64,000 bases of DNA from Haematobia irritans (taxonomy: Eukaryota; Arthropoda; Insecta; Diptera; Muscidae), in NCBI RefSeq assembly GCF_050003625.1, contig NC_134398.1, forward strand, positions 63,620,891-63,684,890, read 5' to 3'. Of this stretch, positions 2,579-47,847 are shown in pieces. The translations under genes were made by a program, and so were the position numbers. Under the pieces are notes generated by a model, which saw only the letters and a list, made by a program, of their open reading frames with translations, searched no databases and was not told the DNA's origin. How positions within the stretch are numbered: the stretch's first letter is position 1; the number at the start of each line of letters is the position of its first letter.

Positions 2579-4366
2579 AACAAGTACATACGGCCGCAAG
2601 TTCGGCCAGGCCGAATCTTATGTACCCACCACCATGGATTGCGTAGAAACTTCTACGAAAGACTGTGATTTAGTCCATACATGGTATATATTAGACAAAA
2701 AAGTTATGTACAGTTAAGTCTACAAATAATTACGAATCGATATGGACTTTTTGTACGTAGAGAGCCAGAATTGAAATATGGGGGTCGCTTATATGGGGGC
2801 TATATACAATTATGAACTTGATATGGACCAATTTTTGTGTGATTGGGGATCGATTTATCTGAGGGCCATATATAACTATAGACCGATATGGACCTAGTTA
2901 GGCATGATTATTAACGACCATATACTAGCACAATGTACCAAATTTCAACTGACTCGGTTGAAATTTCCTCCTCCAAGTGGCTCCAAAACCAAATCTCGGG
3001 ATCGGTTCATATGGGGGCTATATATTTTTATGGACTGATATGGACCACTTTTGGCATGGTTGTTAAATATATACTACCACCACGTACCAAATTTCAAGCA
3101 GATCGGATGAATTTTGCTTCTCCAAAAGGCACCGGAGGTCAAATCTGGGGATCGGTTTATATGGGAGCTATATATAATTATGGACTGATAGGAACCAATT
3201 CCTGCATGGTTGTTGGATACCATATACTAACATCACGTACCAAATTTCAACCGAATGGCAAGAATTTTGCTCTTCCAAGGGGCTCTGGAGGTCAAATCTG
3301 GGGATCGGTTTATATGGGGCCTATATATAATTATGGAGCGATATCGACCAATTTTTGCATGGGAGTTTGAGGCCATATATTAACACCACATACCAAATTT
3401 CAACTGAATCAGATGAATTTTGGTCTTCCAAGAGGTTCCGGAGGTCAAATCTGGTGATCGGTTTATATGGGGGCTATATATAATTATGAACCGATGTTGA
3501 CCAATTTTTGCATGGTTGTTATAGACCATATACTAACATCACGTACAAAATTTCAGCCGTATCGGATGGAATTTGCTTCTCTTAGCGGCCTCGCAAGCCA
3601 AATCGGGGGATCGGTTTATATGGGGGCTATATATAATTATGGACCGATGTCGACCAATTTTTGCATGGTTGTTAGAGACCATATACTAACACCATGTACC
3701 AAATTTCAGCCGGATCGGATGAAATTTGCTTCTCTTAGAGGCCTCGCAAGCCAAAGAGGGGGATCGGTTTATATGGGGGCTATATATAATTATGGACCGA
3801 TGTGGACCAATTTTTGCATGGTTGTTAGAGACCATATAATGACACCATGTACCAAATTTCAGCCGGATCGGATGAAATTTGCTTCTCTTAGGGGCCTCGC
3901 AAGCCAAATCGGGGGATCTGTTTATATGGGGGCTATATATAATTATGGACCGATGTGGACCAATTTTTGCATGGTTGTTAGAAACCATATACTAACACCA
4001 TGTACCAAATTTCAGCCGGATCGGATGAAATTTGCTTCTCTTAGAGGCCTCGCAAGCCAAATTTTGGGGTCCGTTTATATGGGGGCCATACGTAAAAGTG
4101 GACCGATATGGTCCATTTGCAATACCATCTGACCTACATCAATAACAACTAATTGTGCCAAGTTTCAAGTCGATAGCTTGTTTCGTTCGGAAGTTAGCGT
4201 GATTTCAACACACGGACGGACGGACGGACATGCTCAGATCGACTCAGAATTTCACCACGACCCAGAATATATATACTTTATGGGGTCTTAGAGCAATATT
4301 TCGATGTGTTACAAACGGAATGACAAAGTTAATATACCCCCCCATCCTATGGTGGTGGGTATAAAA
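2579..4366 (+). mobile_element. L-subfamily DINE/Helentron-like element, copy A
   Basis: Starts AACAAGTACATACGGCCG. A near-perfect palindrome around TTCGGCCAGGCCGAA follows, then GTACCCACCACCATGG, whose inverse CCTATGGTGGTGGGTATA closes the 3' end. The middle is a set of 153-bp units. Before the tail come a short (GGAC)n run and GACTCAGAATTTCACCACGA. Both A and B carry the same order of diverged proximal units followed by homogeneous distal units, so the two copies are close relatives that differ mainly in array length. Non-autonomous: the open frames are by-products of the 153-bp period. Confidence 0.75.
3467..4078 (+). repeat. 153-bp tandem array, 4 units (copy A)
   Basis: Four units exactly 153 bp apart, each containing GTTTATATGGGGGCTATATA, a GACCGATGTNGACCAATTTTT stretch split by variation, and CATGGTTGTTAGAGACCATA. 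Because 153 is a multiple of 3, each unit adds 51 codons and stays open on the plus strand, and partly on the minus strand. More diverged units lie upstream at about 2950-3460. Confidence 0.9.
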
Positions 4367-4573
4367 AGGATCTCATACTCATTCTTTGTTGGCTGCCAAG
4401 CTATTAATTTGTTTATGTCTAGTTACTCCTAACTTTGGCCTTCTAGAAGACATTCTCTATAACATATAAAAGATCCGATACCCATTATACGTTCACTTCC
4501 GACAGAAGGGAACGCGGAATGACCTCACGTGTAGCTTAAGTTTACCTCTTGACGCCCACATCACATAAATGTG

Positions 4574-4642
4574 TCGTAGGCCAGTGGATGAGTGTAGGAC
4601 TACCAATAACGAGGACCCCGGTACAAATCCCGACGGAGCAGA
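4574..4642 (+). repeat. tRNA-like sequence (A box and B box), isolated
   Basis: TCGTAGGCCAGTGGATGAGTG resembles a pol III A box (TRGYNNARNNG), and about 35 bp on GGTACAAATCCC resembles a B box (GGTTCRANNCC) with one change. The layout matches the right-hand tRNA-like module of the N elements. It lies 115 bp from N1 but outside its CAC end. No acceptor stem can be drawn, so it is not a functional tRNA; most likely a SINE or N-element relic. Confidence 0.5.
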
Positions 4643-5969
4643 AAAATAAAAATACACATAATTATTAAAATCACAAAAATAAGATAAACTGTATAGGAAA
4701 AGTAAGTCAAATTAAATTCTAATGTAAAAGGTATGAGGGCAAAAGTTCAGTTCATACACTGTTAGAAAAATATGTTTTTCATATGTTCCTATATAAACAA
4801 AATGTGTTTCGGGCACGATTTTAAACCACAACATATTTAAGTGCGAACATGTAATTTTCCTAAACTAACACTAAATGTTTGGGACATCTATGTTAATATG
4901 TTAGAATATATTATGTTTGGGGCATGAATGTTTCATAAAAATCATATGTGTGAATACAAACATATATAAATTTACAAATTTCAACTAAACATACATATGT
5001 TGTGATATTTTATTCAAAGCGACAGAGAGAGTATAGAGAGAAATAGAGATGGAAACCGGGAGAGTTGACGAAAGATATCAATATAACACAGCAAAAGAGT
5101 AAAAAGAGAACAATTTCTGTGAAACCGCTTGTATGTTGTTTCGGAAAACTGTTTTATGATAAGGCCAAAAATTTGATATGTTTAAGTCTAAATATTATTT
5201 AATTTGAATAAAGAGAATATACATTCTGAACCAAGAGAATAGACATTTGAAAAACAAACAGCTTATGTTTTCGCCTTGAGAGCAGCATTTTATGTATGTG
5301 TGGACATGTGTTTTGTTTATCATTTTGGCATTATTTTTTTCTTGGTTCGTTAAAAGAAATCAGGGGTCTTCATAAAAATAACGAAAGGGCACTATACTCT
5401 TTTTAGAGTTGGGACGGTAAAATGAAATAAGGAGGAAATAGTGAAAAACACAGTAAAATGTAAAAAAACAAAGTTTAGTTTCACTTTATTAAAAAGTAGT
5501 CCACGAGGAGTTGACGGACACCATCAAATATAAAAGCGGGCATTAAGTTCGAGTTTTACAGCTAAAACAATTTAAAAAGTTTATTTTCTTTAAAATTAAT
5601 TATTAAAGAAAAATAAAAGGAATTTTAGAGCGATGGTGTTAAATGCTAGTAAAAAACTGTTCACTCCTAAATAAATTTATGTTTATATTATAAAATTATG
5701 TATGTATGTTCATACTCGACTCCACTTTCTTCTTTTGTTAGTTTTTGAATTCCTTCCAAATTTTAAAGTTTTGTACAAAAACAGTTTTTTATTACAAGAT
5801 TGTTATTTTTGCAATAAAAAATAATATTTTATCCAAAAATCATTCAATTTCGTTTATATCAAGCACTGTTACTGACTATAAATCTTTAATAACGCACATT
5901 TCGATGTTTCATTTAAAAAAATTAATATAGTATAAATATAAATGTGTAAATTAAAAAAAAAAAAAAAAA

Positions 5970-6042
5970 TCGGTCGGAGCAGGGATTGAACCCACGACCC
6001 TTTGCATGCAAGGCAGACATGCTAACCACTGCTCCACGTGGC
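5970..6042 (-). promoter_or_regulatory. tRNA-like module (left) of N1
   Basis: On the minus strand it reads GTGGAGCAGTGGTTAGCATG (A-box region), then CCTTGCATGCAAAGG where the anticodon arm would sit, then GTGGGTTCAATCCCTGC (B-box region). The 72-nt length and spacing are tRNA-like. The loop TTGCATG resembles tRNA-Ala(TGC), which is inference. Acceptor pairing is poor. It is followed in its own direction by a long T-run (A-run on plus, about 5954-5969), which could terminate pol III. Confidence 0.6.
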
Positions 6043-6156
6043 AAACAAATGTATGTTTTTGTTAAATAATGTTATGTTTGCATGGGCTCGTGGGCGCTGC
6101 AAACTATGCTATATAAATGTAACTTAAAACGATAATTATCTACTGGTGACTATAAC

Positions 6157-6232
6157 AGCTACGTAGCCCAGTGGATAGTGTGTTGGCTTACAAACTGTAT
6201 GGTCCTCGGTTCGATTCTCCGTGCAGGCGAAA
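6157..6232 (+). promoter_or_regulatory. tRNA-like module (right) of N1
   Basis: Reads GTAGCCCAGTGGATAGTGTG (A-box region), then GGCTTACAAACTG at the anticodon arm position, then CGGTTCGATTCTCCG (B box within a short stem). It points away from the left module, with about 114 bp between their 5' ends. That spacer contains GGGCTCGTGGGCGC and TATATAAAT (6110-6118). Which tRNA it came from is not clear. Confidence 0.6.
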
Positions 6233-6541
6233 GGTAAAATTTAAAAAAATTATAAAAGTGAATAATTTCTTCAACATTATTTGTATTACAGAGAAAGGTG
6301 CCAATAAATAAAAAATTTCGTGGAAGTGAAAATTACGAGTATGTTAGGGAATGAGCACAATCGTGTTTGGGAAAAATTCTTCCAAGCATATAATATTTTT
6401 GGCTCAAAATGCTTCCAAACATATAATATGTTCACATAAAACAAACATATTAATGTTTCGGCAGTATGCAATAATATATGTGCTTCCTGCAAAATATGTT
6501 TGGAACATATGTTAAAGAAGCGATTTTTTTTTGAGGGTGTA

Positions 6542-7890: not shown

Positions 7891-8927
7891 GCCTGTTATG
7901 TACACTCCGGGAAATAAAACATACTGAAAATGAAAGCTATAAAATGAGGTTATGGCGTGAATATTGTATCATTATTGCCTGATAGATATATCCCGAACTA
8001 CGACATATGTTGCCAATCCTCTCAATAGATTAAAAAAAACAAGTACATACGGCCGCAAGTTCGGCCAGGCCGAATCTTATGTACCCACCACCATGGATTG
8101 CGTAGAAACTTCTACGAAAGACTGTGATTTAGTCCATACATGGTATATATTAGACAAAAAAGTTATGTATAGTTAAGTCTACAAATAATTACGAATCGAT
8201 ATGGAATTTTTGTACGTAGAGAGCCAGAATTGAAATATGGGGGTCGCTTATATGGGGGCTATATACAATTATGAACTTGATATGGACCAATTTGTGTGTG
8301 ATTGGGGATCGATTTATCTGAGGGCCATATATAACTATAGACCGATATGGTCCTAGTTAGGCATGGTTGTTAACGACCATATACTAGCACAATGTACCAA
8401 ATTTCAACTCACTCGGATGAAATTTGCTTCTCCAAGAGGTTCCAAAACCAAATCACGGGATCGGTTTATATGGGGCTATGTATGATTATGGACTGATATG
8501 GACCACTTTTGGCATGGTTGTTAAATATCATATACTACCACCACGTACCAAATTTCAAGCAGAACGGATGAATTTTGCTTCTCCAAAAGGCACCGGAGGT
8601 CAAATCTGGGGATCGGTTTATATGGGAGCTATATATAATTATGGACTGATAGGAACCAATTCCTGCATGGTTGTTGGATACCATATACTAACATCACGTA
8701 CCAAATTTCAACCGAATGGCAAGAATTTTGCTCTTCCAAGGGGCTCTGGAGGTCAAATCTGGGGATCGGTTTATATGGGGCCTATATATAATTATGGACC
8801 GATATCGACCAATTTTTGCATGGGAGTTTGAGGCCATATATTAACACCACATACCAAATTTCAACTGAATCAGATGAATTTTGGTCTTCCAAGAGGTTCC
8901 GGAGGTCAAATCTGGTGATCGGTTTAT

Positions 8928-10610
8928 ATGGGGGCTATATATAATTATGAACCGATGTGGACCAATTTTTGCATGGTTGCTAAAGACCATATTCTAACAT
9001 CACGTACAAAATTTCAGCCGGATCGGATGAAATTTGCTTCTCTTAGCGGCCTCGCAAGCCAAATCGGGGGATCGGTTTATATGGGGGCTATATATAATTA
9101 TGGACCGGTGTCGACAAATTTTTGCATGGTTGTTAGAGACCATATACTAACACCATGTAGCAAATTTCAGCCGGATCGGATGAAATTTGCTTCTCTTAGA
9201 GGCCTCGCAAGCCAAATCGGGGGATCGGTTTATATGGGGGCTATATATAATTATGGACCGATGTCGACTAATTTTTGCATGGTTGTTAGAGACCATATAC
9301 TAACACCATGTAGCAAATTTCAGCCGGATCGGATGAAATTTGCTTCTCTTAGCGGCCTCGCAAGCCAAATCGGGGGATCGGTTTATATGGGGGCTATATA
9401 TAATTATGGACCGATGTCGACAAATTTTTGCATGGTTGTTAGAGACCATATACTAACAGCATGTAGCAAATTTCAGCCGGATCGGATGAAATTTGCTTCT
9501 CTTAGAGGCCTCGCAAGCCAAATCGGGGGATCGGTTTATATGGGGGCTATATATAATTATGGACCGATGTCGACTAATTTTTGCATGGTTGTTAGAGACC
9601 ATATACTAACACCATGTAGCAAATTTCAGCCGGATCGGATGAAATTTGCTTCTCTTAGAGGCCTCGCAAGCCAAATCGGGGGATCGGTTTATATGGGGGC
9701 TATATATAATTATGGACCGATGTCGACTAATTTTTGCATGGTTGTTAGAGACCATATACTAACACCATGTAGCAAATTTCAGCCGGATCGGATGAAATTT
9801 GCTTCTCTTAGAGGCCTCGCAAGCCAAATCGGGGGATCGGTTTATATGGGGGCTATATATAATTATGGACCGATGTCGACTAATTTTTGCATGGTTGTTA
9901 GAGACCATATACTAACACCATGTAGCAAATTTCAGCCGGATCGGATGAAATTTGCTTCTCTTAGCGGCCTCGCAAGCCAAATCGGGGGATCGGTTTATAT
10001 GGGGGCTATATATAATTATGGACCGATGTCGACAAATTTTTGCATGGTTGTTAGAGACCATATACTAACACCATGTACCAAATTTCAGCCGGATCGGATG
10101 AAATTTGCTTCTCTTAGAGACCTCGCAAGCCAAATCGGGGGATCGGTTTATATGGGGGCTATATATAATTATGGACCGATGTCGACTAATTTTTGCATGG
10201 TTGTTAGAGACCATATACTAACACCATGTAGCAAATTTCAGCCGGATCGGATGAAATTTGCTTCTCTTAGAGGCCTCGCAAGCCAAATCGGGGGATCGGT
10301 TTATATGGGGGCTATATATAATTATGGACCGATGTCGACCAATTTTTGCATGGTTGTTAGAGACCATATACTAACACCATATACCAAATTTCAGCCGGAT
10401 CGGATGAAATTTGCTTCTCTTAGAGGCCTCGCAAGCCAAATCGGGGGATCGGTTTATATGGGGGCTATATATAATTATGGACCGATGTGGACCAATTTTT
10501 GCATGGTTGTTAGAGACCATATACTAATACCATGTACCAAATTTCAGCCGGATCGGATGAAATTTGCTTCTCTTAGAGGCCTCGCAAGCCAAATTTTGGG
10601 GTCCGTTTAT
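8928..10610 (+). repeat. 153-bp tandem array, 11 units (copy B)
   Basis: Eleven units in exact 153-bp register, open as one frame that runs to 10883. Internal variants (GTCGACAAATT against GTCGACTAATT, and an Arg/Ser switch in the codon before GGCCTCGCAAGCC) recur in linked pairs at units 1-2, 3-4 and 7-8. This suggests expansion by multi-unit duplication rather than single-unit slippage. Confidence 0.92.
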
Positions 10611-10740
10611 ATGGGGGCTATACGTAAAAGTGGACCGATATGGCCCATTTGCAATACCATCCGACCTACATCAATAACAACTACTTGTGCCAAGTTTCAA
10701 GTCGATAGCTTGTTTCGTTCGGAAGTTAGCGTGATTTCAA

Positions 10741-10790
10741 CAGACGGACGGACGGACGGACGGACGGACGGACGGACGGACGGACGGACA
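10741..10790 (+). repeat. (GGAC)n microsatellite in L tail
   Basis: About twelve GGAC repeats. The same site has 1-9 repeats in other L copies, so it is a variable internal microsatellite of the family. Confidence 0.9.
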
Positions 10791-12155: not shown

Positions 12156-12606
12156 CACCCTCAAAAAAAATCGCTTCTGTAACATATACTCCCAAACACA
12201 TTTTGCTTCAAGCATATACATTTTTGGGTATTGCCCAAACATTTATATATTTGATTTCTTCCAATATATAATATGTTTGAAAGCATATTGGTCTAAACAA
12301 TATAATATGTTTGGGTAGTCTAAGTTCCAAACGTTATGTATTTTTCCATCCAAATTCAATAATGTTGTCTTCCAAAAAACTATATGTTATTATGTGAACA
12401 TATAATATGTTTGGAAACATTTTGAACCCAAAAATATTATATGCTTAGAAGAATTTTCTCCCATGCTCAATTTTTTTTCTGCCTAATTATATATTCCCTC
12501 ACATTTTTCTCACTTCCACGAGTTTTTTAGTTCATAGCACCTTTTTCTGTAATACAAACATTGTAGAAGAAATTATTAAATTTTATAATTTTTTTAAATT
12601 TTACCT

Positions 12607-12680
12607 TTTGCCGGACGGGGATTCGAACAGCGGACCACACAGTTTGTACGCCAGCACACTAACCACTGGGCTACGTAGCT
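12607..12680 (-). promoter_or_regulatory. tRNA-like module (right type) of N2
   Basis: Minus-strand A-box region GTAGCCCAGTGGTTAGTGTG and B-box region TGTTCGAATCCCCG are both present. Confidence 0.55.
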
Positions 12681-12805
12681 GTTATGGTCATCAAGAGACA
12701 ATTATCGTTATAAGTCATATTTATATAGCATAGCTTGCGGCGCCCACGAGCCGATGCAAACATAACATTGTTTAACAACATAACATCGTTAAACATACAG
12801 TTGTT

Positions 12806-12880
12806 GGCGGCGTGGATCAGTGGTTGGTACGTCCGCCTTGCATGCCAAGGGTCCTGGGCACGATCCCTGCTTCGACCGAC
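12806..12880 (+). promoter_or_regulatory. tRNA-like module (left type) of N2
   Basis: GTGGATCAGTGGTTGGTACG, CCTTGCATGCCAAGG and GGGCACGATCCCTGC match the left module of N1. A long T-run (12887-12904) follows directly, as expected for a pol III terminator. Confidence 0.55.
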
Positions 12881-13526
12881 ACCATTTTTTTATTTTTTTT
12901 TTTTTACATATATTTTTTACGTATATTCCAGATACGTTCGGAATATCCCGAAAAGGTGTTCAACATTACATACTACTATATTAAATTTTTACTACGAAAC
13001 TGTAAAGTGTGTCTTATAAAAGACTTAAAGTCAGAAAACAACAGTGCTTGATATAAACGAAATGGACTGAGTTCAAATCATATATTATTTTTTATTGCAA
13101 AAATAAAAATTTTGTAACAAAAAAGGATATTGTATACAAATACAAGTTAGAAATTTTCGAAGAATTTCAAAAACTCTTACAAAGGAAGAATGTGAAGTGG
13201 AGTATATATATAAATATTTTTCCATCGAATCCTAAAGTTAACGATAACCATTCAAAAGCACATTATATTTAAATTCTAAACAATAATTTTACAACCAAGA
13301 CATAAATTTATTTAGGTGTGAACAATTATTTACTTTCTTTAATAATTTATTCTAAAGAAAATAAACTTATTCAATTGTTGCTTGGGATCATGCCCCACCA
13401 AGTTATAATACAATTTGCCTAAAAAAGTTATAATGTTATTCTGGGTTTACCGATTCGAGTTTTGCCGTTAAAATGAGAAATAATTCCCAATGTTTTCATT
13501 TTACTGTCACAACTCTAAAAAGAGTA

Positions 13527-14105
13527 CACTGAAAAAATATTGTCGTGAGGCCAAAGATTTCATGTCCTTAAAATACGAATACAAATTTTGCTTAGCTTAG
13601 ACGACGCATTTCTGTAATATAAAGTTTTTTCCATGTTCAAAAGTCGATAAACTTTTTAATGAAGTCGTGTTGTCCTTATAATTAAGTGACTTGAAAATGG
13701 GTATCATAACATGAAAGAAAAAAAATTTTAACTAAGGTCAACTTGACTTTAATAATTCAGAAAAATTCTTTAAAACTAATGAAATTGTCTGCAAATTTGT
13801 TGCATTTTTGCATCTGGACATGTTTTTCAAAACGTTATTTTAAAGACGTTTTTACTTGAAACATAGCATAATATCTACTGGACGTCTTGTTTTCAACGGA
13901 CTTTTTATAGCATATGAAAAAAGCTGCAAAAGCGAAAAAATAAAATTTGCTTCATAGAGTCAAATACACAAAACCCACATATAAAAGAGAATTGTGTCTT
14001 AAAAGTATCCTTACTTGAATTCTCGGCTTCATTGGCTCGGAATCAATACCAAAATTGTTAAAATAGAGACATAATCTTTGGAACTGGGCAAGCTATTTTT
14101 CAGTG
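13527..14105 (+). mobile_element. F-family element F1, nested in N2
   Basis: Ends CACTGAAAAAATATTGTCG and CTATTTTTCAGTG. The internal word TTCATGTCCTTAAAATACG and the right-end word CTTCATTGGCTCGGAATC recur in the other F copies. Non-coding MITE-like element of about 580 bp. Confidence 0.75.
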
Positions 14106-16822
14106 TGTAGTGCCCTTTCGTTACTTTTTATGAAGATCCCTTTAATTACCTTTGTTTGAATATTTTGACTTACTCGTCCTACGTTCCGATTTGTTTTGAC
14201 GAAACAAAAAAAGTGCCCATAATGCGAAAATGATAAACAAAACTCATGCTCTTTTTTACAAATGCCTTTTCTCTTGGTTCCGAATGAATTTTCTCTTCGA
14301 ATACTCATTTTAATCTTTTTACTTAAGCATATACAATTTTTGGCGGTCTTATATCACAACATATATATGTTTACTCCAAATTTGGAAATTTATACTTGTT
14401 TATATTCACACACAGTATTTTTCCAATCTTTAATTGAATTTTCTTTGTGTATATATAATTTTAAGGCGCCAATTTGTTACTTTCATGATTTTACTTCCAG
14501 CACACATTTTATGTCTCTCTTTCTAAACACATATATGTTTATAGTCTATTTCTAAATTAATATATGTTTGCATCCAAGCATATTATATTTACAAACATTT
14601 TATGTCCCAAACATAATATGTTCTAACATATTAACACATATGTCCCAAACATGTTATGCTAGTTTATGAACATTATATGCTTGCACTTAAAAATATTGTG
14701 TTTACAAATTTGTAATCCAAACATATAATTTTTACACCCAAACATATGAAAAACAGTCTTTTTCGTCCGTGTGTGTACTGACTGTACACAGGAAAAATTA
14801 AATTGGTTTATGGAAAGAATGAACTACCTCATGCTGGGATTTTACCCATATACCCAAACCAATTGCAAATAGTAGAGGTGTGCGCGTGAGTGAAATTTCA
14901 TTCACACTCACGCACATTCACGAAGCAAAATGTTTGTTCACGCACGATATGTTTGGTAGCCACTCACACTAACGCACGTTCACGAAATGTAAACCGGTAT
15001 TCACGCACGCTCACGCACGAACTACTTTTAAAGACTCACGCACGATTCACGACAATTAACGTGACTCACGACAAATTCACGAGACTCACGACAAATTCAC
15101 GACATTTTCCAACCGGGAAAGAGGAAAGGTAACTAAATTAATAAATAGGATATAGTTCGACAGCTAAATAGAATTCAGTTATCATATCAAAAAAATTACA
15201 TCTTTTTTCGTGAGCGTGATTTTGCAGAAATTTTATTCACGCACTGAAAAAACAGTGAACCCTTTTCCATTGCAAAATGAACTAAACTGTAGTAATATTG
15301 ACCATGATTTAGCCCTTAGGATTTTTTTCAACTTGTCTAGTTTATAATTCTCTTAAATTTTAGTTCATCTATAACATTGTAGTTTAGTTCATTTTTACAA
15401 CACCATAATTAAACTATTTTTAAATCAATCATTCCACAGTACAGAGAAATTAAATAATTAAAGGAACAACAAACCGTTTTACTATTATGAAAATTTTCAT
15501 ACATTAAAATTAAACTTTCTTTAAGCAAAAGTACTTTATTATAAAAAAAAAAACAAAACTTATGATGAAAGTTCTTAATACAATGTTTTTTGTGAATAAA
15601 AATTATGACCACGTGGAACAGAGAGTAGTTCATTTGAACCCGCTGTTTGGACATTTTGACTTATCCTTTTTTTATTCATCGTAGGTAATTTTTTCACATA
15701 TCTTGCTGGAAAAAATGGAAACAATAATGAACATTGTTAAAAATTAACACCATGTAATGAAATATAATTTTAATTCTTCATTTTAGCTTGTAACTTACCA
15801 TATTTGGGGGCATTTTATCGAATGGTGTAAGGAATTCAACTTTTCTTTGGAAAACGTATCTCATAAAATTGGTACCTGAAACAATTAGAGAAATAATGAA
15901 GTATTCTATATAAACTCATAAAACTGTGTTGCTTTCGATGTGAAGGATATAATAAAATAAATATTCTAGTTGAAAGAAAGCCAGAGTTTTAATATAAAAC
16001 TTACCAATTCTCTATTAAATTGTACGCTGAGGGGAAATATAAAAAGTTGTTTAAATTTATTTGGGCTATTCTGAAATTAAATATTTATTTTTTACATTAA
16101 ATAAAATTATTAAATAGGTTTCCAAAAAATCTAATGAAAAAAATAATATTATGCATAAAAAAACAAATATTCTGGTTAAAAGAAACTTAAAGAATCCTTA
16201 CCAATTCACTATTAAATTACAAGCAAAGGAGTACTAACATTTTTTTCAAATTTTAAAGGGGTTATTCTGAAATTAAATATTTGTTTTTTTACATTAAAAT
16301 ATTACATTGGTTTCCAAAAAATTGATTAAAGAAATACTAAAATAAGGTATTAAAAACCTATAATTTTGATGATAAAAAGGTCATAAAAACGTAAATATTC
16401 TAGTTGAAAGAAAGCCAAATTTTAAAAGCAAACTTACCAATTCTCTATTTTCGAACCCATCTGGAGTTGCTCTGAAATTAAATATTGACTTTACAACAAA
16501 GAAAAACATTAAACTGGTTTCAAAAAAAAAAAAAAAAAAATAATTAACAAATAATAATATACATAAAAAATATTATTTTTATAAGAAAGCCATATTAAAA
16601 AAAAAAAAACAATACTTACCAATTGATGGCTAAGCTATACGCTGAGATATAACAAAAATTTTCCAAATTCATCTGGAATTGAATATTAATTTTTTACATT
16701 GAATAATAAAAATTTCAATACACTTTCAATTTCAACATATTTTCCTAAATATTCTTAATAACTTTTCTCGAAACTACCGATAAAATATTAATAACTTTCA
16801 TTTAAAAGGTTTAATAAACAAA

Positions 16823-21721: not shown

Positions 21722-23797
21722 TTTTATACCCTCCACCATAGGATGGGGGTATATTAACTTTGTCATTCCGTTTGTAACTTTGTCATTCCGTTTGTCCGTC
21801 TGTCCGGCTGTCCGTCCGTCTGTGGAAATCACGCTAACTTCCGAACGAAACAAGCTATCGACTTGAAACTTGGCACAAGTAGTTGTTATTGATGTAGGTC
21901 GGATGGTATTGAAAATGGGCCATATCGGACCACGTTTACGTATAGCCCCCATATAAACCGATCCCCAAATTTAGCTTGGGGAGCCTCCCCTAGCAGCAAA
22001 ATTCATCCGATCCTGTTGAAATTTGGTACGTGGTCTTAGTATACGGTCTCTAACAACCATGCAAAAATTAGTCCATATCGGTCCATAATTATATATAGCC
22101 CCCATATAAACCGATCCCCAGATTTGACCTCCGGAGCCTCTTGGAGGGGCAAAATTCATCCGATCCGATTGAAATTTGGTACCTGATGTTAGTATATGGT
22201 CTCTAACAACCATGCAAAAATTGGTCCATATCGGTCCATAATTATATATAGCCCCCATATAAACCGATCCCCAGATTTGACCTCCGGAGACTTTTGGAGG
22301 GGCAAAATGCATCCGATCCGGTTGAAATTTGGTACCTGATGCTAGTATACGGCCTCTAACAACCATGCAAAAATTGGTCCATATCGGTCCATAATTATAT
22401 ATAGCTCCCATATAAACCGATCCCCAGATTTGACCACCGGAGCCTCTTGGAGGAGCAAAATTCATCCGATCCGGTTGAAATTTAGTACGTGGTCTTAGTA
22501 TACGGTTTTTAACAACGATGCAAAAATTGGTCCATATCGGTCCATAATTATATATAGCCCCCATATAAACCGATCCCCAGATTTGACCTCCGGAGCCTCT
22601 TGGAGGGGCAAAATTCATCCGATCCGGTTGAAATTTGGTACCTGATGTTAGTTTACGGCCTCTAATAACCATGCAAAAATTGGTCCATATCGGTCCATAA
22701 TTATATATAGCCCCCATATAAACCGATCCCCAGATTTGACCTCCGGAGCCTCTTGGAAGAGCAAAATTCATCCGATACGGTTGAAATTTGGTACATTTTG
22801 TCAATATATGGCCTCTAACAGTCATGTAAAAATTGGTCCATATCGGTCTTTAGTTATATATAGCCGATGACTTATTACACAAAAATTGGTCCATATCGCC
22901 AAAAATAATCTACCAAAACTTTATTTCCATAGAAAATTTTGTCAAATTTTATTACTATAGAAAGTTTTGTCAAAATTTCATTTCTATAGAAAGTTTTGTC
23001 AAAAGTTTATTTCTATACAAATGTTTGTCAAAATTTTATTTCCATAGAAAATTTTGTCAAAATTTTATTTCTATAGAAAATTTTTGTAATCTACCAAAAC
23101 TTTATTTCTATAGAAAATTTTGTCAAATTTTATTACTATAGAAAGTTTTGTTAAAATTTCATTTCTATAGAAAGTTTTGTCAAAAGTTTATTTCTATAGA
23201 AAATTTTGTAAAAAATTTATTTCTGTAGAAAATTTTGTCAACATTTTATTTCTATACAAAATTTTGTCAAAATTTTATTTCTATACAAAATTTTGTCAAC
23301 ATTTTATTTCTATAGAAATTTTTGTCAAAATTGTATTGCTATAGAAAATTTTGTCAACATTTACTTCCATAGAAAATTTTGTCAACATTTTATTTCTATA
23401 GAAAATTTTGTCAAGTTTTTATTTCTATAGAAAATTTTGTCAAATTTTTATTTCTATAGAAAATTTTGTCAAAATTTTATTTCTATAGAAAATTTTGTCA
23501 AGGTTTCATTTCTATAGAAAATTTTGTCAAAATTTTATTTCTATATAAAATTTTGTCAAACTAGATTATATACGTATTTAATCGGCCTTTTTTTGTTTAA
23601 TATATACCCCGTATGGGCTAACTTACAATTTAGAAGACAGTGTTAAAAAGTTTTACGATACCTTGCCATTGGCAAGTGTTATCGCAACCCAAGTAATTCG
23701 ATTGTGGATGACAGCCTTTAGTAGAAGTTCCTACGCAATCCATGGTGGAGGGTACATAAGATTCGGCCTGGCCGAACTTACGGCCGTATATACTTGT
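21722..23797 (-). mobile_element. L-subfamily DINE/Helentron-like element, copy C
   Basis: Minus orientation: TTTTTATACCCTCCACCATA (3' tail) at the left, CGGCCGTATATACTTGTT (5' head) at the right. The tail has lost the stretch between GTTTGTAAC and the GTCC run that is present in other copies. It has about six 153-bp-type units (about 21975-22870), then a 29-30-bp minisatellite, then the head with the TTCGGCCTGGCCGAA palindrome. Confidence 0.8.
22905..23568 (-). repeat. 29-30-bp minisatellite in L copy C
   Basis: About 22 units built on ATTTCTATAGAAAATTTTGTC. Each unit contains the 12-bp palindrome TTTCTATAGAAA. The same minisatellite, at other lengths, occurs in L7 (41455-41880), L8 (45750-45835) and L5 (59855-60090). 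Confidence 0.93.
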
Positions 23798-24297: not shown

Positions 24298-26610
24298 GAC
24301 AAAAAAAAGCATGTCCGGGGTCAAAGTTTTTGCCTTTACATTAATAATTTTGATATAAGTTACGATCCAAGGGAGCGGAGAATTTAATTAAGGATATCTT
24401 TAAGACACAATTCTCTATTAAACTTGAGTTTTGCATACTTGATTATAGGAAATTTGAATTTATTCGTGTTTTTTGTTTTTGTTTCTTTATGTGCTATCAA
24501 AATCCTTTAAAATTTTTTAACGAAATCCTAAATTTCCAAATTCAGACTCGGCTTTAAGTTGAAGTTATGCTATGTTTCAAATAAAAACCGTCTTTGCAAT
24601 GAAAAAAAAAAACATCCCCTATCATGCAAAAAGTCAACAAAATTTCATTGAACGTGAAGAATTTTTCAGAATTATTAAAATCAAGTTGACTGGTTAAACA
24701 ACTTTTTTATACCCTCCACCATAGGATGGGGGGTATATTAACTTTGTCATTCCGTTTGTAACACATCGAAATATTGCTCTAAGACCCTATAAAGTATATA
24801 TATTCTGGGTCGTGGTGAAATTCTGAGTCGATCTGAGCATGTCCGTCCGTCCGTCCGTCCGTCTGTTGAAATCACGCTAACTTCCGAACGAAACAAGCTA
24901 TCGACTTGAAACTTGGAACAAGTAGTTGTTATTGATGTAGGTCGGATGGTATTGAAAATGGGCCATATCGGTCCACTTTTACGTATAGCCCCCATATAAA
25001 CGGACCCCCAAATTTGGCTTGCGAGGCCTCTAAGAGAAGCAAATTTCATCCGATCCGGCTGAAATTTGGTACATGGTGTTAGTATATGGTCTCTAAACAC
25101 CATGCAAAAATTGGTCCACATCGGTCCATAATTATATATAGCCCCCATATAAACCGATCCCCCGATTTGGCTTGCGAGGTCTCTAAGAGAAGCAAATTTC
25201 ATCCGATCCGGCTGAAATTTAGTACATGGTGTTAGTATATGGTCTCTAACAACCATGCAAAAATTGGTCCACATCGGTCCATAATTATATATAGCCCCCA
25301 TATAAACCGATCCCCCGATTTGGCTTGCGAGGCCTCTAAGAGAAGCAAGTTTCATCCGATCAGGCTGAAATTTGGTACATGGTGTTAGTATATGGTCTCT
25401 AACAACCATGCTAAAATAAGTCCCCATCGGTCCATAATTATATATAGCCCCCATATAAACCGATCCCCCGATTTGGCTTGAGAGGCCTTTAAGAGAAGCA
25501 AATTTCATCCGATCCGGCTGAAATTTGGTACATGGTGTTAGTATATGGTCTCTAACAATCATGCAAAAATTGGTCCACATCGGTCCATATTTATATATAG
25601 CCCCCATATAAACCGATCACCAGATTTGACCTCCGGAGCCTCTTGGAAGACCAAAATTCATCTGATTCAGTTGAAATTTGGTACGTGGTGTTAAAATATA
25701 GCCTCAAACTCCCATGTAAAAATTGGTCGGTATCGGTCCATAATTATATATAGGCCCCATATAAACCGATTCCCAGATTTGACCTCCAGAACCCCTTGGA
25801 AGAGCAAAATTCTTCCCATTCGGTTGAAATTTGGTACGTGATGTTAGTATATGGTATCCAACAACCATGCAAGAATTGGTTCCTATCAGCCCATAATTAT
25901 ATATAGCTCCCATATAAACCGATCCCCAGATTTGACCTCCGGTGCCTTTTGGAGAAGCAAAATTCATCCGATCTGCTTGAAATTTTGGTACGTGGTGATC
26001 GTATATGATATTTAACAACCATGCCAAAAGTGGTCCATATCAGTCCATAATCATTATAGCCTCCATATAAACCGATCCCGAGATTTGGTTTTGGAGCCAC
26101 TTGGAGGAGCAAATTTCATCCGAGTGAGTTGAAATTTGGTACATTGTGCTAGTATATGGTCGTTAAAAACCATGCGTAACTAGGTCCATATCGGTCTATG
26201 GTTATATATATCCCTCAGATAAATCGATTTCCAATCACACAAAAAGTGGTCCATATCAAGTTCATCATTCTACACGCAAAGAAAAAAAACGTTTGGAAAA
26301 CGTGTACCGAAAACGTTTTTCTTTTGTTAGAGTTTTTTGAATTGCTTCGAAAATTTTAAACTTTTATCACCAAAAAAATTCGTTTGTTACAAAATTTTTA
26401 TTTTTTCAATAAAAAAAGTTATTTTTGAAACAACAACACAGTCCATTTCGTTTATATCAAACACTGTTCTTTTCTGACTTTAGGTCTTTAATAAGACACA
26501 TTTTACAGTTCAAAATTTAATATACTACAATGTAATGTTGAACATTTTTTTGGAATATTCCGAACATATCTGGAATATATGTAAAAAAAAAAACAAACAA
26601 ACAAAAATTT

Positions 26611-26682
26611 GGCCGAAGCAGGGATCGAACCCACGACCCTTGACATGCAAGACGGACGTAGCAACCACTGCTCCACGGTCCC
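26611..26682 (-). promoter_or_regulatory. tRNA-like module (left type) of N3
   Basis: Minus-strand GTGGAGCAGTGGTTGCTACG and GTGGGTTCGATCCCTGC: a consensus B box (GGTTCGATCCC) is kept here. An A-rich plus-strand tract beyond it gives T-runs in its direction of reading. Confidence 0.6.
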
Positions 26683-26796
26683 AAACTAAATGTTTGTTTC
26701 TGTTAAATAAACTTTGTTTATTCGGTTCGTGGGCGCCGCAAGCTATGCTATATAAATATAACTTATATGGATATTTATCTATTGATGACCATAACA

Positions 26797-26871
26797 GGTA
26801 CATAGCTCAGTGGTTAGTGTGTTGGCTTACAAAGTGCATGGTCCGCGGTTCGATTCTCCGTCCAGGCGAAA
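26797..26871 (+). promoter_or_regulatory. tRNA-like module (right type) of N3
   Basis: CATAGCTCAGTGGTTAGTGTG-like A box (the closest of all copies to a real tRNA D-arm, TAGCTCAGTGGTTAG), GGCTTACAAAGTG and GCGGTTCGATTCTCCGTC with an intact B box. Confidence 0.62.
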
Positions 26872-28837
26872 GGTAAAAAAATTTTAAAAATTTATAAAAT
26901 CGTATAATTTCTTCTACATTGTTGGTATTACAGAAAAAGGTGCTAAGAACTAAAAAACTTCGTGGAAGTGAGAAAGATGTGAGGGAAAATGCAATTAGCC
27001 AGAAAAAAATTTTTTTGAGTTAGTCTTTATGAAATTGTTTTTACATCCTGGAAAAGAATAAACGTTTATCACAAAAAGTATATACTTTTCTTCCAAATGC
27101 ACTTCCTTTCAAAGAAAAGAATATGAGAAACGAACTTTGTTTGTCTAAAATTTCGTTTGGGAGGAAAGAATTATTTTTTTGCGTGTATATAGCCCCCATA
27201 TAAGCGGCCCCGATATTTATATTCTGGCTCTCTACGTACGGTGCAAAAGTCCATGTCGATTCGTAATTATTTGTAGACTTACCTATACATAAGTTTTTTT
27301 GTCTAATATATACCACGTATGGACTAACTCACAATTTAGAAAACGATATTAAGACGTTTTAAGATACCACAACCCAAGTAATTCGATTGTGGATGACAGT
27401 CTTTCGTAGAAGTTTCTACGCAATCCATGGTGGAGGGTACATAAGATTCGGCCTGGCCGAACTTACGGCCGTATACACTTGTTTTTTCATGTAAAGATAT
27501 CCATTTTAAAGTTGAATCACTTGACTTTAAGGACAAAACGACTTCATTGAAAAGCTTATCGACTTTAAAACAAACAAAACAAATTCTATATCATAGAAAT
27601 GAGTCTATGCTAAAAAAAAATCGCATTCGTATATTAATTAAATAATTGACCGCACAACCGTTTCTTATTTTTTCAGGTTTACCGTTCCATGCCATGGAGA
27701 AACGCATAACAGCCCGTTTCTAGATAGATCTAAATGCACTGAAAACACCAAGATTTTTACTTAATATGAAAGACTATAAAAGCGACGTTAAGCGTTGTTA
27801 AAAAAAGGAACATGTAGTGTCCTGATATACTTCGTAACTGCCATTCACGAAATTACGTCCTTTCGTAGAACACAGAATAAAAGTGTCTCGTAAATTTAAG
27901 AAGATTTTTACAATAATTTATTACAAGAATTTTCCAGAATTTTAGTACATTTTTCGTATCTTCAACGAAAATTAACTACTCGAAAGGAAATTTTACAAAT
28001 TCTAAGTAGCAATCGTTTAGTTCATGGCCTACAAAATACGATGGAAATTTCCTTAAAAAAATTCTTAACTGGTAATTAAAAATTCGTTTGTCATGCTATA
28101 AAACTACTTGTGAAATGTAAAGTGCTTTCTAAATAATAAGTGCAATTTACTATGATTTTTTTTATGAGAAAATATTTTTTTACGAAAAATGAACTTGAAT
28201 GTGGATAGCAATTTCTTACTGACAATTCCTATAGTTAATAATTGTTGGTAGAAAATTACTCAATGAAATATTTTTAGTTCACATGTAATTAAATTTATAG
28301 AAATTTTCGTCAAAAATGGCAGATAACATTTCATGAAGTTTTTGCAAATTTTAAGTTAAACATTTCACCGTTCATAAACTGGTGTGCCTTTACGAATATT
28401 ATTCTTAGAGTAAATTGTCAGCAGATGCGTTGTTTTTATTTTTGTTCATTTAGTGGTTTGTGTGTGTGTTTGTTATTCGTGGATGGTTTATTTGGCTGGA
28501 TGAGGTGTTGTTTTCAATAAAGGCACATGTGTTTTTGTTGTTGTAGGAATGTTTTGGCTTTGCTTAGTTTTGTTTGGCATGCTTCAGTTGTATAGTTGGC
28601 GTTGGCGTGGTCTGTTGCATCTTTTAATACGCAACAGGGGAATATAAAGGCATGGAATATTTTGTAATTTTGAGACATATATTGATGTTTGTTTATTAAA
28701 CCTTTTAAATGAAAGTTATTAATATTTTATCGGTAGTTTAGAGAAAAGTTATTAAGAATATTTAGGAAAATATGTTGAAATTGAAAGTGTATTGAAATTT
28801 TTATTATTCAATGTAAAAAATTAATATTCAATTCCAG

Positions 28838-29286: not shown

Positions 29287-29574
29287 TAAGGATTCTTTGA
29301 CATTCTTTTAACCCTGGACAGTCATCCTTATTTTTTGTACATTAACGTCATCCTTCGTCATTTTGACTACGGCTCATTTCAAGACGCTATAATTTTCATC
29401 GTGCGCGAAACTTGAATTTATTTTCTTATTCAATTTGGTTTTAATTAGTATAAAACGAAAAAGATCATAAAACGGTCGAATTAGTATAATTTAAATTTAC
29501 CATTTCCCAATAGACTAAAATGCATTTTAAATCGAAAATGAAATGTCGTCATTTTGACGAATGATGACTGTCTA

Positions 29575-30748
29575 CACTGAAAAAAATATTGTCGTGAGGT
29601 TAAAGATTTCATGTCTTTAAAATACGAATACAAATTTTGCTTAGCATAGAAGACGCATTTCCCTAAAATAAAGATATTTTACTTGTCCAAAAGTCGATAA
29701 ACTTTTCAATGAAGTCGTATTGTCCTTATAATTAAGTGATTTGACTTAAAAATGGGTATCTTAACATGAAAGAAAAAATTTATAGGCTAAGGTCAACTTG
29801 ACTTTAATAATTCAGAAAAATTCTTTAAATTTAATGATATTGTCTTTAAATTTGTTGTCTTTTTGCGTCTTGACTGCAAAGCAAAAAATCGTTCAAATAT
29901 AGGACATGTTTTTCAAAACTTTATTTTAAAGAAGTTTTTTACTTCAAACATAGCATAATTTCTACTGCACTGAAAAAACAGTGAACCCACCAGGAAGAAA
30001 ACTTTCGGTTAATTTTAGAAAATTTTGAATATTTGTAGAAAATTTTAACTAAACAGTATTACAAACGTTGGCATCACGCCGATGTCATAAAAATAAGTAA
30101 ATATTTTTCGACAAAATCAAGAAAATTTTTTAGACATAACTAAGTTTTTTCACTTGTTAAAGAAAATTTTGTAGTTTGAAGGAAAAACTTGGAGTTCAAA
30201 ATTGCAAGAATGTCTTTAGTGACATACGAAGTTCATGATGGCCACATTTTTGGTAAAATTTACAAATTTAAAGAAATTCTGAACTATTTTGTGGAAGGCA
30301 CGAATTTAGTTAATCTTTATGCTTCAGTTGAGTATATTTTTTTCTTCGGGTTTAGTTAATTTAACTAACGTACACAAAAAATTATTAGAGTAAAGAAAAC
30401 TTTCTCCAAACATAATAATTCCATGAACTAAAATAAAGTTAAATTGGCTTTAGTGAAATATAGAGTTCACTTTTTTTTGAGTGTGGAAGTCGAGTCCTAA
30501 TTTGGAAAATAAAGTTGCCGTTAACTCATTTTTAAAGGACTTTTATAGCATATGAAGAAAAGAAGCTGAGAAAGCGAAAAATTAAAATTTGCTACCTAGA
30601 AGCAAGTACACAAAACCTAAATTTAAAATAGAATTGTGTCTTAAAAGTATCCTTACTTGTATTCTCCGCTTCTTTGGCTCGGAATCAATACCAAATTTTT
30701 TAAAGTAAAGACAAAATCTTTGGAACCGAGTATGCTTTTTTTTCAGTG
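29575..30748 (+). mobile_element. F-family element F3, nested in K
   Basis: CACTGAAAAAAATATTGTCG to GCTTTTTTTTCAGTG, flanked by TA (29573-29574, 30749-30750). It is interrupted by G1. The right part has TCTCCGCTTCTTTGGCTCGG, the F hallmark. Confidence 0.8.
29968..30483. mobile_element. CAC...GTG element G1, nested in F3
   Basis: Ends CACTGAAAAAACAGTGAACC (identical to an H end) and GTTCACTTTTTTTTGAGTG, flanked by TG. The empty site is visible in another F copy (44390-44405, reading CTTCCAGTAGAAATTATGC), which fixes the insertion point. Confidence 0.75.
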
Positions 30749-30862
30749 TAGGTTTAACCAGAATATTTGGTTTTTTATCCATATTATTATTTTTTCCATT
30801 AGATTTTTTAGATACCTATTTAATAATTGTATTTAATGTAAAAAATAAATATTTAATTTCAG

Positions 30863-32308: not shown

Positions 32309-35300
32309 TTATTTTTCTTTGTTGAACCAACCAGATTGTTCCAAAAACAGTAGCAGACTGCTTAAGTTAACGTTTTCCAGATCCGCCAGTAATCTGAAGC
32401 TATATGCTCCTAAAAGTTGCTTGCGCTTTACACAAAATGCAGGACACTCACACAAGAGGTGTTTAATTGATTCTTTTTCCTCCGCATCATGACAGCTCAT
32501 ACAATAGTCATTATACTTCGCGCCAATAGTTTTTGCAAAATCGCCTATCAGGCAGCGACCCGTTATAGCAGATATCAGGAGTGATATCTGACGTCTCGAG
32601 AACATTAGCATATCTAGTGTGCGGTTTAAGTTGAAATGGGGCCATATTTGCTTGGTGTCGTTACAACCCTTGCAATTCTCCCATCGAACATTTGCCATCA
32701 TAACAGCCTTCTCACGCAGCATGAGCTTGCAGGTAGCTAGGGGCATACCAACAAATTCTAGTTCCCCTGTAATATGTAAGGTAGTCCCTAGCCTTGCCAA
32801 CTCATCCGCTTCGCAGTTCCCCGGTATGTTCCTATGGCCAGGCACCCATATTAGGTGAATATTGTACTGCTCAGCCATCTCATTGAGAGATTTGCGGCAG
32901 TCGATGGCCGTTTTCGAGTTGAGGAACACAGAGTCCAAGGATTTTATTGCAGGTTGACTGCCTGAGTATATATTAATGCCCACATTTTTTGGAACATTAC
33001 TTCTCAGCCAATTCGCCACCTCTCTTATTGCTAATATTTCAGCCTGAAAAACACTACAGTGATTAGGTAATCTTTTCGCTATTCGAAGTTCCAGATCATT
33101 AGAATATACTCCGAACCCCACTTGTCCATCCAATTTGGAGCCATCAGTGTAGAAATCTATATATTCTTTATTCCCCGGGGTCTGTGTGCACCACGCCTCA
33201 CTGTTGGGGATTAGAGTCTCAAACTTTTTGTCGAAAAGTGGACTCGCCAAAGTGTAATCCACTACGTTAGGCACATCTGGCATTGTTTTGAGGACAGAAC
33301 TGTGACCGTAACCTTTTTCCGACCACAGCGATAGTTCGCGCAACCGCACAGCCGTTGTTGCAGCTGACTGTTTGGCCAAAATGTCTAAAGGCAATAGATG
33401 CAGCACGACATTAAGGGAATTTGTTCCTGTCTTGCTGAATGCGCCTGAAATACACAAACACGCCATACGCTGAACTTTATCTAAACAAGTCGGTTTCTGA
33501 AGTGCCGGCCACCAGACTACAACACCATATAGCATTATAGGTCTAACCACTGCCGTGTATAGCCAATGCACAATTTTTGGTTTCAGTCCCCACTTTTTTC
33601 CTATTGCCTTTTTGCACGAGTACAAAGCTACAGTTGCCTTTCTCGCCCTTTCTTCAATATTAAGCTTAAAGTTCAGCTTCCTGTCCAAAATAACGCCAAG
33701 GTATTTTGCACATTCACCAAAGGGAATTTCAATACCCCCTAAGGAAATAGGCCTAACCGTGGGAGTTTTGCGATCGTTGCAGTACATGACTAATTCTGTC
33801 TTTGCAGGATTTACCCCAAGACCATTGTCTTTCGCCCATTTCTCAGTCATCCGGAGGGCCCTCTGAATAATATCTCTGATTGTGGATGGGAATTTTCCCC
33901 TGACTGCCAGAGCCACATCATCTGCGTATGCCACCACTTTTATCCTTTCTTTTTCTAGAGTAACCAGAAGGCTATTTATAGCAACATTCCAAAGAAGAGG
34001 TGATAGGACTCCTCCTTGGGGAGTGCCTCTGTTCACATACCTTTGTATGTTTGCTTGTCCTAGTGTGGCTGAAATACGTCTCTTCATTAGCAGTTCGTCT
34101 AACAGCCTGAGTATACATGGATCAACATTCAGAGTTGTCAGTCCATTTAATATCGAGCTCGGATGGACATTATTGAACGCCCCTTCGATGTCTAGAAACG
34201 CCACGATTGTGTATTCTTTGACAGATAGTGAGCTTTCAATAAAGCTGACTAGTTCATGTAGTGCGGTCTCAGTAGACCTGCCCTTCGAGTATGCATGCTG
34301 TCGTTTCGAGAACAAACTTGAATCGATGCTAGTTCTAAGATAAATATCTATCATCCTCTCCAGAGTCTTAAGTAGGAATGAGGATAAGCTGATTGGTCGG
34401 AAATCCTTCGCCCTCGAGTGAGAGGCTTTTCCCGCTTTAGGTATGAAAACGACTTTTGTTTCCCTCCACTTTCCTGGGATATATGATAAGTTGATACATC
34501 CTTTATATATCACCGACAACCAGGGGATAATTTTGTCAGTTACAGCTTGTAACTCCGCCGGAGTAATTCCATCAGGTCCAGGGGATTTGAATGGTCCAAA
34601 GCTATTTAGCGCCCATCTTATTCTAGTTTCCGATACAATTTCCTCGACAGGAAACGACCGCTGAGCAACTGTGGCACCGCCAGTACATGGTTCAACCGTC
34701 TGATTTCCAGGAAAATGTGTGTCCAATAGTACCTCCAGCGTCTCCTTACTGGACGTTGTCCAATTGCCCTCCGATGTTTTAATGAAACCTGGAGCGGAGT
34801 TGGTGGATGCTAGAACCTTCCGTAGTCTGGAAGCCTCGGACGTATTCTCAATACTGCTGCAGTAAGCATTCCAAGAGTTATGCTGAGCCTTTCTCAGTTC
34901 TCGCTTGTATCCTCTCAGATTCTTCTTGTAAGCGTCCCAGTCCTCAGGGGCTCTGGTGGACTTTGCCTTGTTAAAGAGCTTCCTGCAGGATTTCCTCATA
35001 TTACTTAATTCCGTAGACCACCATGGTGGTCGATGTTTCCCCCTTGGCTTTCCTCTAGGGCATGCAGCTTTCAGTGAGATGTTGAAGGCCTTAGTAATCC
35101 GCTCCACTGCGTGTTCGATATCTTGCACATTTCTCATATTTGTCTCTGTTATTTCCGGTATCATCATATTGAACGATTCCCTATACCTATTCCAGTCAGC
35201 TTTCCTAACATTTGGCGGAAATATGATCTTGGTGATATGAACATCAAATTTGAAACTGATGTAGCGATGATCTGAGAAGCTGTGTTCTCTTAAAACCTGC

Positions 35301-37085: not shown

Positions 37086-37198
37086 GGTGGCTTAATATCC
37101 CACCACACTTGAAATTCGTAGTAGGTACCTATTACTATGAGTTTATCCGCTATTGAAAAAAACACGTCCGTTCCGTTCGACGGTTGAATAGGAATTCA

Positions 37199-38816: not shown

Positions 38817-39246
38817 TTTTATACCCTCCACCATAGGATGAGGGGTATATTAACTTTGTCATTCTGTTTGTAACACATCGAAATACTGATCTAAGACCCC
38901 ATAAAGTATATATTCTATGTCGTGGTGAAATTCTGAGCCGATCTGACGATGTCCGTCCTTCTGTTGAAATCACGCTAACTTCCGAACGAAACAAGCTATC
39001 GACTTAAAACTTGGCACCAAGTAGTTTTAATTGGTATTGCAATTGGGCCATATGGGAAACATACGAGGGCAGTTCGGAAACTTCTTCGCCTAGCACAAAA
39101 AGCGCGGTATAAACAGAAAAAAGTTAAGTGTTTTGGAAACATCCATCTCTGTTATGAACACATGTTAAATTTTGTTTCGATCTGTAGTTCGAAACAAACA
39201 TATAGAATCAGGTGTTCAAAAAAGACGCATCCGCAATTTTGTTACA

Positions 39247-39763
39247 ATGGAGAAATTAGAAATAAAAAAATTAAAAAAAAAAAAAGTTTATCGAGACAAG
39301 AAATTCATTCATGATATGGTGAATGTGTTAGATGAAACAGCTCCTTCATATGCCACGGCAAAAAATTGGGTTGCTGAATTTAAAAGTGGTCGTACAAGCA
39401 TTGAAGATGAACCACGTAGTGGACGTCCAAAAACAGCAACAACAACAGAAATTGTAGCCAAAGTGCATGATATGGTATTAAATGATCAACAAATAAAAGT
39501 GCGTGAAATTGCTAATATCATGGGCATCTCAAATGATAGAGTCCATTTAATTTTGCATGAAGAACTACAGATGAAAAAGGTTTCTGCAAGATGGGTGCCG
39601 CATTTGTTAACAGTCGATCAAAAACATTTCACAAGCTTGTTTGGATTGTTTTAAGCGAAATAAAATGGAAATAAAATGGATCAAACAATGAGCTGAAGCT
39701 GGAGGAAGTGCCCAATGAAGGCAAAAACAAATTAATCGGCTGTAAGGTTATGGCAACGGTTTT
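39247..39763 (+). pseudogene. mariner transposase, N-terminal part (broken)
   Basis: From Met (MEKLEI) through a helix-turn-helix region (APSYATAKNWVAEFKSGRTS, RSGRPKTATTTEIVAKVHDM), REIANIMGIS and SARWVPHLLTVDQK. After that the frame fails: the part expected to carry the first catalytic Asp (a DETW-type motif) is deleted or shifted around 39640-39720, leaving stops. The last recognisable codons, KVMATVF, run into L7. A first-helix segment also looks scrambled (KKLKKKK). Dead. Confidence 0.85.
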
Positions 39764-47822: not shown

Positions 47823-47847
47823 ATAAACAAATAAACAAATGGTGTTG

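Follow-up and report, generated by a model that had tools for sequence, protein, structure and literature searches.

DNA transposons are usually considered apart from tRNA-derived SINEs. In the 64-kb window (the whole stretch of DNA that was analysed), a core of about 290 bp is present six times inside mobile elements or parts of them, with one tRNA-like module on the minus strand, then a spacer and a second such module on the plus strand; one copy has lost most of its left module. A family spreading two tRNA-like box pairs would seed potential TFIIIC sites and exons with each insertion, and offers a natural test of whether the boxes are kept by selection or ride along. The questions raised by this locus are what carries the core and whether the module pair does anything for its carrier. 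The carriers, with their flanking duplications and cores (strand given relative to the window), are as follows:

4757-6539, plus strand: E1, complete, ends CACTGTTAG...GAGGGTG, duplication TA/TA at 4755-4756 and 6540-6541; core 5951-6240, plus strand
12156-14771, minus strand: E2, complete, duplication TG/TG; core 12598-12901, minus strand
26273-27185, plus strand: E3, ends CACGCAAAG... and ...TTTTTTTGCGTG, duplication TA/TA; core 26592-26878, plus strand
43542-50820, plus strand: E4, duplication TA/TA; core 47824-48126, plus strand
49188-50164, plus strand: E5, a seventh element, duplication CA/CA; of the core, the 3' half of the right module alone is left
51332-53074, minus strand: E6, duplication CA/CA; core 51624-51844, minus strand, left module cut after the A box
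62224-62723, minus strand: a core copy with part of the right arm, its left side adjoining a 153-bp-repeat element; core 62427-62706, minus strand, right-module B box with a 5-nt gap

CAC at the start, GTG at the end and a 2-bp duplication at the flanks (TA, TG, TA, TA, CA and CA, all pyrimidine-purine steps) are common to all six elements of which both ends can be seen, the end coordinates of E3, E4 and E5 having been fixed by reading; the inverted repeats are short and imperfect (CACTGTTAG and CACCCTCAA). For an empty-site test, the flanks of each element were joined over one copy of the duplication and the product was sought in the window without a gap at the junction. The results showed gap-free empty sites elsewhere in the window for four of the six elements. 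That of E3, which is inserted in 153-bp-repeat DNA, lies at 8435-8126 (91% over 315 columns) with a further copy at 2976-2667; E4 has one at 41946-42151 (82% over 206) and others; that of E5 at 48465-48185 is 99% identical over 281 bp; and that of E6 at 29602-29660 (88% over 60 bp) is the weakest of the four. No empty site was found within the window for E1 or E2. A tRNA-derived SINE has a tail at its end, target duplications of variable length and no inverted ends, and SINE identity of the unit was rejected on its CAC/GTG ends and 2-bp duplications. Given these ends, the duplications and the four empty sites, the elements are DNA transposons, in agreement with the earlier note, which had described CAC...GTG ends with 2-bp duplications and had preferred a DNA transposon to a SINE.

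Short motifs are repeated beside the ends. The hexamer AACATA occurs 6-9 times in each of the four arms of E1 and E2, where shuffles gave means of 0.35-1.38 and none of 500 reached the count in any arm. E3 is without AACATA and holds AAACGT instead, with a weaker signal (5 and 17 of 500 shuffles). A single AAACGT is also found in one arm of E2 (17 of 500 shuffles). Such repeated short motifs beside the ends are a feature of CACTA/TRC-like transposons. No transposase was found in the 10 of 30 ORFs listed for the elements that were searched, the best Pfam match being DltX (E 0.011). The elements are most like non-autonomous CACTA/TRC transposons, a class read from the ends and the duplication length only.

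One core lies within different ends. E3 has a stretch of about 675 bp in common with E1 at 76% identity, and neither the outermost 40 bp of its left side nor the outermost 200 bp of its right side gave another match in the window at E <= 1e-3. The left ends of E1 and E6 differ from those of E2, E4 and E5 over about the first 16 bp, and the left arms of E1 and E2 (12156-14771) are 77% identical over 240 aligned columns. The proposal that the core persists within quite different outer arms is therefore upheld by E3, the comparison of E1 with 12156-14771 being the weaker case, if the latter is the element that the earlier note had called N3. The cargo lies between at least two kinds of ends, and either fast divergence of the ends or exchange of cargo between families may account for them.

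The window is repeat-rich and has a dipteran look. A non-LTR retrotransposon ORF pair at 32309-37091 (RVT_1, Exo_endo_phos_2, RNase_H), which we take to be jockey-type, has its named relatives, among the best 120 of 349 listed, in Bactrocera and Musca at 40-44% identity. Mariner-like ORFs were recognised by reading at 39169-39651, with Pfam matches below cut-off only, and at 61546-62214, with no Pfam match. Arrays of 153-bp repeats, presumably of the kind seen in Helentron/DINE elements, occur at 3011-4228, 8418-10760, 21782-22865, 24841-25985, 39896-41278, 45802-47616 and 62877-63757; they have a common terminal stretch, interrupt E4 and adjoin the core at 62427-62706. E4 is split by one 153-bp-repeat element (about 45500-47815, limits by reading) and by a palindromic insert (about 48157-50388, by reading), which consists of two inverted copies of about 430-590 bp and a partial third (by reading) and was itself hit by E5. 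Inside E2 lies a CACTGAAAAAA...CAGTG element (about 13528-14110, by reading). It has relatives at 29573-29970 and 30529-30749, and E1 seems to be without it at the matching place near 5395. Inside E6 lies a AATTAATT-rich element at 52297-52870 with ends of the ACACA(A)AAAAAAATT type (by reading).

The organisation of the core can be followed in E1:

5972-6042, minus strand: left tRNA-like module, A box 6036-6026, B box 5992-5982
6043-6156, plus strand: spacer between the modules
6157-6230, plus strand: right tRNA-like module, A box 6164-6174, B box 6208-6218
6231-6300, plus strand: AT-rich stretch past the right module, with a GTAAAA ... TTACAG interval of 58 bp

The tRNA-like modules are 71-74 bp long. 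In a strict box search, which allowed at most one mismatch in the A box and one in the B box with 30-36 nt between them, the window held 11 box pairs at tRNA spacing as against a mean of 0.095 per shuffle (200 dinucleotide shuffles, at most two sites in one shuffle and any site in 18 of the 200). Nine of the 11 sites lie inside the six cores, the other two being a solo module at 4577 on the plus strand and a site at 58027 on the minus strand in another kind of element. Nine of the 12 possible modules of the six cores passed this search, both modules doing so in three cores; the failing ones are the left module of E2 (12808-12880), whose B box has two mismatches, the right module of the 62427-62706 core with its 5-nt B-box gap, and the truncated left module of the 51624-51844 core, which leaves one damaged module in each of three cores. 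The B box alone (at most one mismatch) was weak evidence, with 17 sites as against 9.24 +- 3.09 and a maximum of 17 in 100 shuffles, and the loosest setting, two mismatches in either box, was at chance, with 29-64 sites per shuffle (12 shuffles) and about as many in the window. The modules point apart in all six cores, just as the earlier note had reported. It had also put 115-120 bp between their 5' ends; measured between two fixed points, the distance is 114-116 bp in four copies and 128 bp in the cores 12598-12901 and 47824-48126, so that the spacer spans roughly 114-128 bp. The 20 best-kept columns of the core lie in the spacer from 6107 (GCTATATAAAT), in its TATATAAAT part, and include no box.

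The element around 58027 extends over 57663-58734 and has CCCAGCAAAAAAA...TTTTTTTTTGCTGGG ends with a 3-bp AAG duplication (by reading). It holds a tRNA-like A/B pair on the minus strand (58027-57972) and two related B-box stretches on the plus strand (58167 and 58383) that are without a good A box, and it is possibly a second divergent arrangement; the Rfam tRNA family was not listed for it.

With regard to the modules themselves, 10 of the 11 whole modules were folded (the right module of 62427-62706 was left out), and a cloverleaf was the best structure in none of them. Their z-scores ranged from -1.69 to +1.67, and the best, that of the left module of 26592-26878, was equalled by 10 of 200 shuffles. 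The Rfam tRNA model scored the left module in two of the five cores tested, at 20.0 bits (E 0.12) in E1 and 21.5 bits in the 62427-62706 core against a threshold of 29, and was not listed for the right module in any of the five; the whole-window run, the sole Rfam run that covered the 51624-51844 core, gave no tRNA at threshold. ARAGORN called no tRNA in the window at its normal setting, nor any at 95%; at 85% it called the left module in two of the six cores, and at 75% it returned six mostly doubtful genes in five of the six. Matches to other Rfam families (pan motif, RUF6-5, mir-375, CrcZ etc.), which turned up in the cores as well as at 57930-58440, were sub-threshold and were rejected. 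The A and B boxes at tRNA spacing bear out the earlier claim of two tRNA-derived modules within the elements, but the tRNA-fold check that accompanied it came out negative, with no cloverleaf and no Rfam match at threshold. Together, these data indicated that the modules are tRNA-derived sequences with A and B boxes which have decayed, and that they are not tRNA genes.

The account that we prefer, with a probability of about 0.6, is that the elements are non-autonomous, CACTA-related (TRC)-like cut-and-paste transposons of a muscid-like fly, moved in trans, with decaying tRNA-derived internal cargo, and the best reading of the module pair is that it is carried passively. A transposase supplied by an unseen autonomous partner would recognise the CAC ends together with the adjacent motif arrays (AACATA in E1 and E2; AAACGT, weaker, in E3), cut at the CAC ends, insert at YR dinucleotides and duplicate 2 bp; the insertions are there to be seen and the enzyme is postulated. 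An ancestor element, after a presumed capture event, would have held two tRNA-derived sequences in divergent order, and the pair would since have been copied along as internal cargo, decaying and probably without present function. The pair most likely derives from SINE heads, since 4541-4669, 88 bp upstream of E1, holds a lone relative of the right module (nhmmer E 8.4e-8) that has an A-rich tail and suggests a SINE-like dispersed source.

A different view of the core comes from protein comparisons. An open frame of 130 codons, which may or may not be due to chance, runs along the plus strand of the E3 core. Its conceptual peptide gave one match in the protein collection (E 8.6e-10), to the X2 isoform of the Haematobia irritans locus LOC142236224. 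An alignment-based protein search recovered isoforms X2 and X1 of this locus (X1 at E 2.8e-21) and, up to E 1, nothing beyond them. Both isoforms contain the antisense left module and are without the spacer; past the left module, the right module follows in one frame in X2 and in a different one in X1, which also holds the right inner arm, all in the order of the core. Judging from these predicted proteins, the core occurs in Haematobia with its modules in the same order as in the window, and one of its copies seems to have been annotated as a spliced gene by a prediction pipeline. Accordingly, the core could be a plus-strand unit transcribed by pol II and spliced, which we regard as unlikely, with the antisense left module as exon 1, the spacer as intron 1 (with two acceptors 5 nt apart), the right module as exon 2, the AT-rich stretch (57-64 bp) as intron 2 and the right inner arm as exon 3. 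Any conservation of the spacer would then reflect an intron or a promoter region and not a pol III spacer. When the spacer of E3 was taken out from T/GTTTGTTT to CAG/TGG (119 bp; the slash marks the splice point) and its AT-rich stretch from GTAAAA to TTACAG (61 bp), the limits that fit X1, the product matched X1 at 63 of 91 residues and 124 bits, as against the 21 of 43 residues and 43 bits obtained without intron removal; X2 fits an acceptor 5 nt upstream of that of X1. In E1 the spacer can likewise be read as an intron, from T/GTATGTTT to TAG/CC or CAG/TGG, and the 58-bp interval is the counterpart of the second intron implied by X1. The splice signals are found in most copies, with donor 1 as GTATGTTT in five of six cores (GTTTGTTT in E3), the TAG acceptor of the spacer in six of six, donor 2 GTAAAA in six of six and acceptor 2 TTACAG in five of the six copies holding that site, and in E6 the frame is open through the remaining bit of exon 1, exon 2 and part of exon 3. 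Against this, the proteins are predictions, the intron limits were picked after the proteins had been seen, GT...AG pairs are common by chance, and the match concerns one locus in one species. Moreover, the whole frame is kept in none of the four other copies when they are spliced alike, and for this reason the core is not a conserved protein. As far as can be told from the peptides, the left B box of the LOC142236224 copy must differ from the consensus and its right module looks intact. A broader proposal, that the divergent tRNA-like promoter pair is a module transferable among families of fly DNA transposons whose ends differ, and that it has become part of a spliced host transcript in at least one fly with the conserved spacer as intron or promoter, is in our view improbable.

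The earlier note had inferred that the pair is kept as a bidirectional pol III promoter cassette. A working cassette of this kind would bring TFIIIC and pol III to both modules, give rise to short RNAs in the outward directions and benefit the element through open chromatin, insulation or RNA, a combination to which we assign a low likelihood. Both modules do have paired boxes at tRNA spacing in three of the six cores, TATATAAAT stands upstream of the right module in all six spacers, and a run of at least four T begins within 24 nt of the left module, in its own direction, in five of five copies (a run of 17 T in E1), against a background in which TTTT occurs in 3581 of the 9138 stretches of 40 nt taken from the window. 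Past the right module, in contrast, a run of at least four T within 140 nt is absent in five of six copies and present in one; an A-rich stretch follows instead of a T-run, and in E1 the first such run is at offset 168. The statement that a T-run follows each module in its own direction thus holds for the left module and fails for the right. In addition, the damaged module in three of the six cores speaks against a working pair.

Substitution rates bear on the same proposal. The mean pairwise differences, all from five or six related copies in one window, were 0.100 for the boxes (44 columns), 0.178 for the remaining columns of the modules, 0.114 for the spacer, and 0.187 and 0.134 for the left and right inner arms; among the four most distant copies they were 0.114 (boxes), 0.183 (rest of modules), 0.131 (spacer), 0.185 (left arm) and 0.171 (right arm). 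The boxes are weakly better kept than the other columns of the modules (707 of 20000 permutations of columns). When the box pattern was shifted circularly along the core, 35 of 261 shifts reached the observed value, and the boxes are not kept better than the spacer. Conservation of the core is somewhat above that of the left inner arm, and this holds for the four most distant copies as well. In the comparison of boxes with arms, which the earlier note had named as its refuting test, the boxes stand at 0.100 and the inner arms at 0.187 and 0.134 across only five or six copies. With so few copies, these rates do not show selection on the boxes; some constraint on the core is possible, given that the boxes are slightly better kept and the core stands above the left arm. 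With a right module that is without a T-run terminator in five of six copies, and boxes that change no more slowly than the spacer, the data lend no support to a working bidirectional pol III cassette, nor to the claim that one has been kept. Weak pol III starts may occur, chiefly at the left module, and nothing here shows them. That the element instead captured a real divergent pair of host tRNA genes, spacer included, and not two SINE heads, would suit the module length of 71-74 bp, the T-run close past the left module and the divergent order with a short spacer, but is very improbable in view of the 10 modules folded without a cloverleaf and of the solo right-module relative, which suggests a dispersed source.

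The passively carried, tRNA-derived cargo of a TRC-like transposon can be set beside several known systems. SINEs are mobilised through RNA and carry a tail, unlike the window unit with its DNA-transposon ends and 2-bp duplications. The Twin SINE of Culex is a tandem dimer of tRNA-related regions that moves through RNA. Like it, the window unit combines two tRNA-related regions in one dipteran mobile unit; unlike it, the modules are divergent and lie inside a DNA transposon. Isoforms X1 and X2 of LOC142236224 share with the core the antisense left module and the right module, to which X1 adds the right inner arm, all in unchanged order, but differ from it in that the locus is annotated as an uncharacterized protein. 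No DNA-pattern relatives were found in viral contigs or, in another scan, in genome contigs, and a 19-base pattern gave eight isolated exact matches, in bacterial records among the genome contigs, which were taken as chance. A DNA transposon with divergent tRNA-like modules was not found in the literature covered, which mostly excluded subscription journals, and absence from print is not thereby shown. The composite transposon family is real and somewhat unusual, and the functional claim made for it is not supported.

The Culex Twin SINE is among the references of PMC3272025. The insect tRNA-derived SINE Metulj (PMC4016481) has a tRNA-like head some 73 bases long in which about 30 bp separate the A and B boxes, and the window modules resemble it in box spacing and in tRNA-like length. 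With regard to the carriers, PMC1636069 describes animal TRC/CACTA (En/Spm) elements such as SmTRC1. The animal TRC ends given there start with CCC and those of the window elements with CAC; a Transposase_21 protein was not seen among the 10 of 30 window-element ORFs searched; and tRNA-like cargo is not mentioned in the passages on SmTRC1 (PMC1636069). Alternatively spliced transcripts are described for SmTRC1 (PMC1636069). The likeness is in the ends and the target sites: the inverted terminal repeats of these animal elements start with C-x-C, and 2-bp direct repeats flank 7 of 14 SmTRC1 copies and both insect elements named (PMC1636069), such ends and a 2-bp duplication being given for CACTA-related TRC elements of animals also in PMC4298943. 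The window elements, with their C-x-C inverted ends and 2-bp duplications, are like TRC/CACTA elements as described there (PMC1636069).
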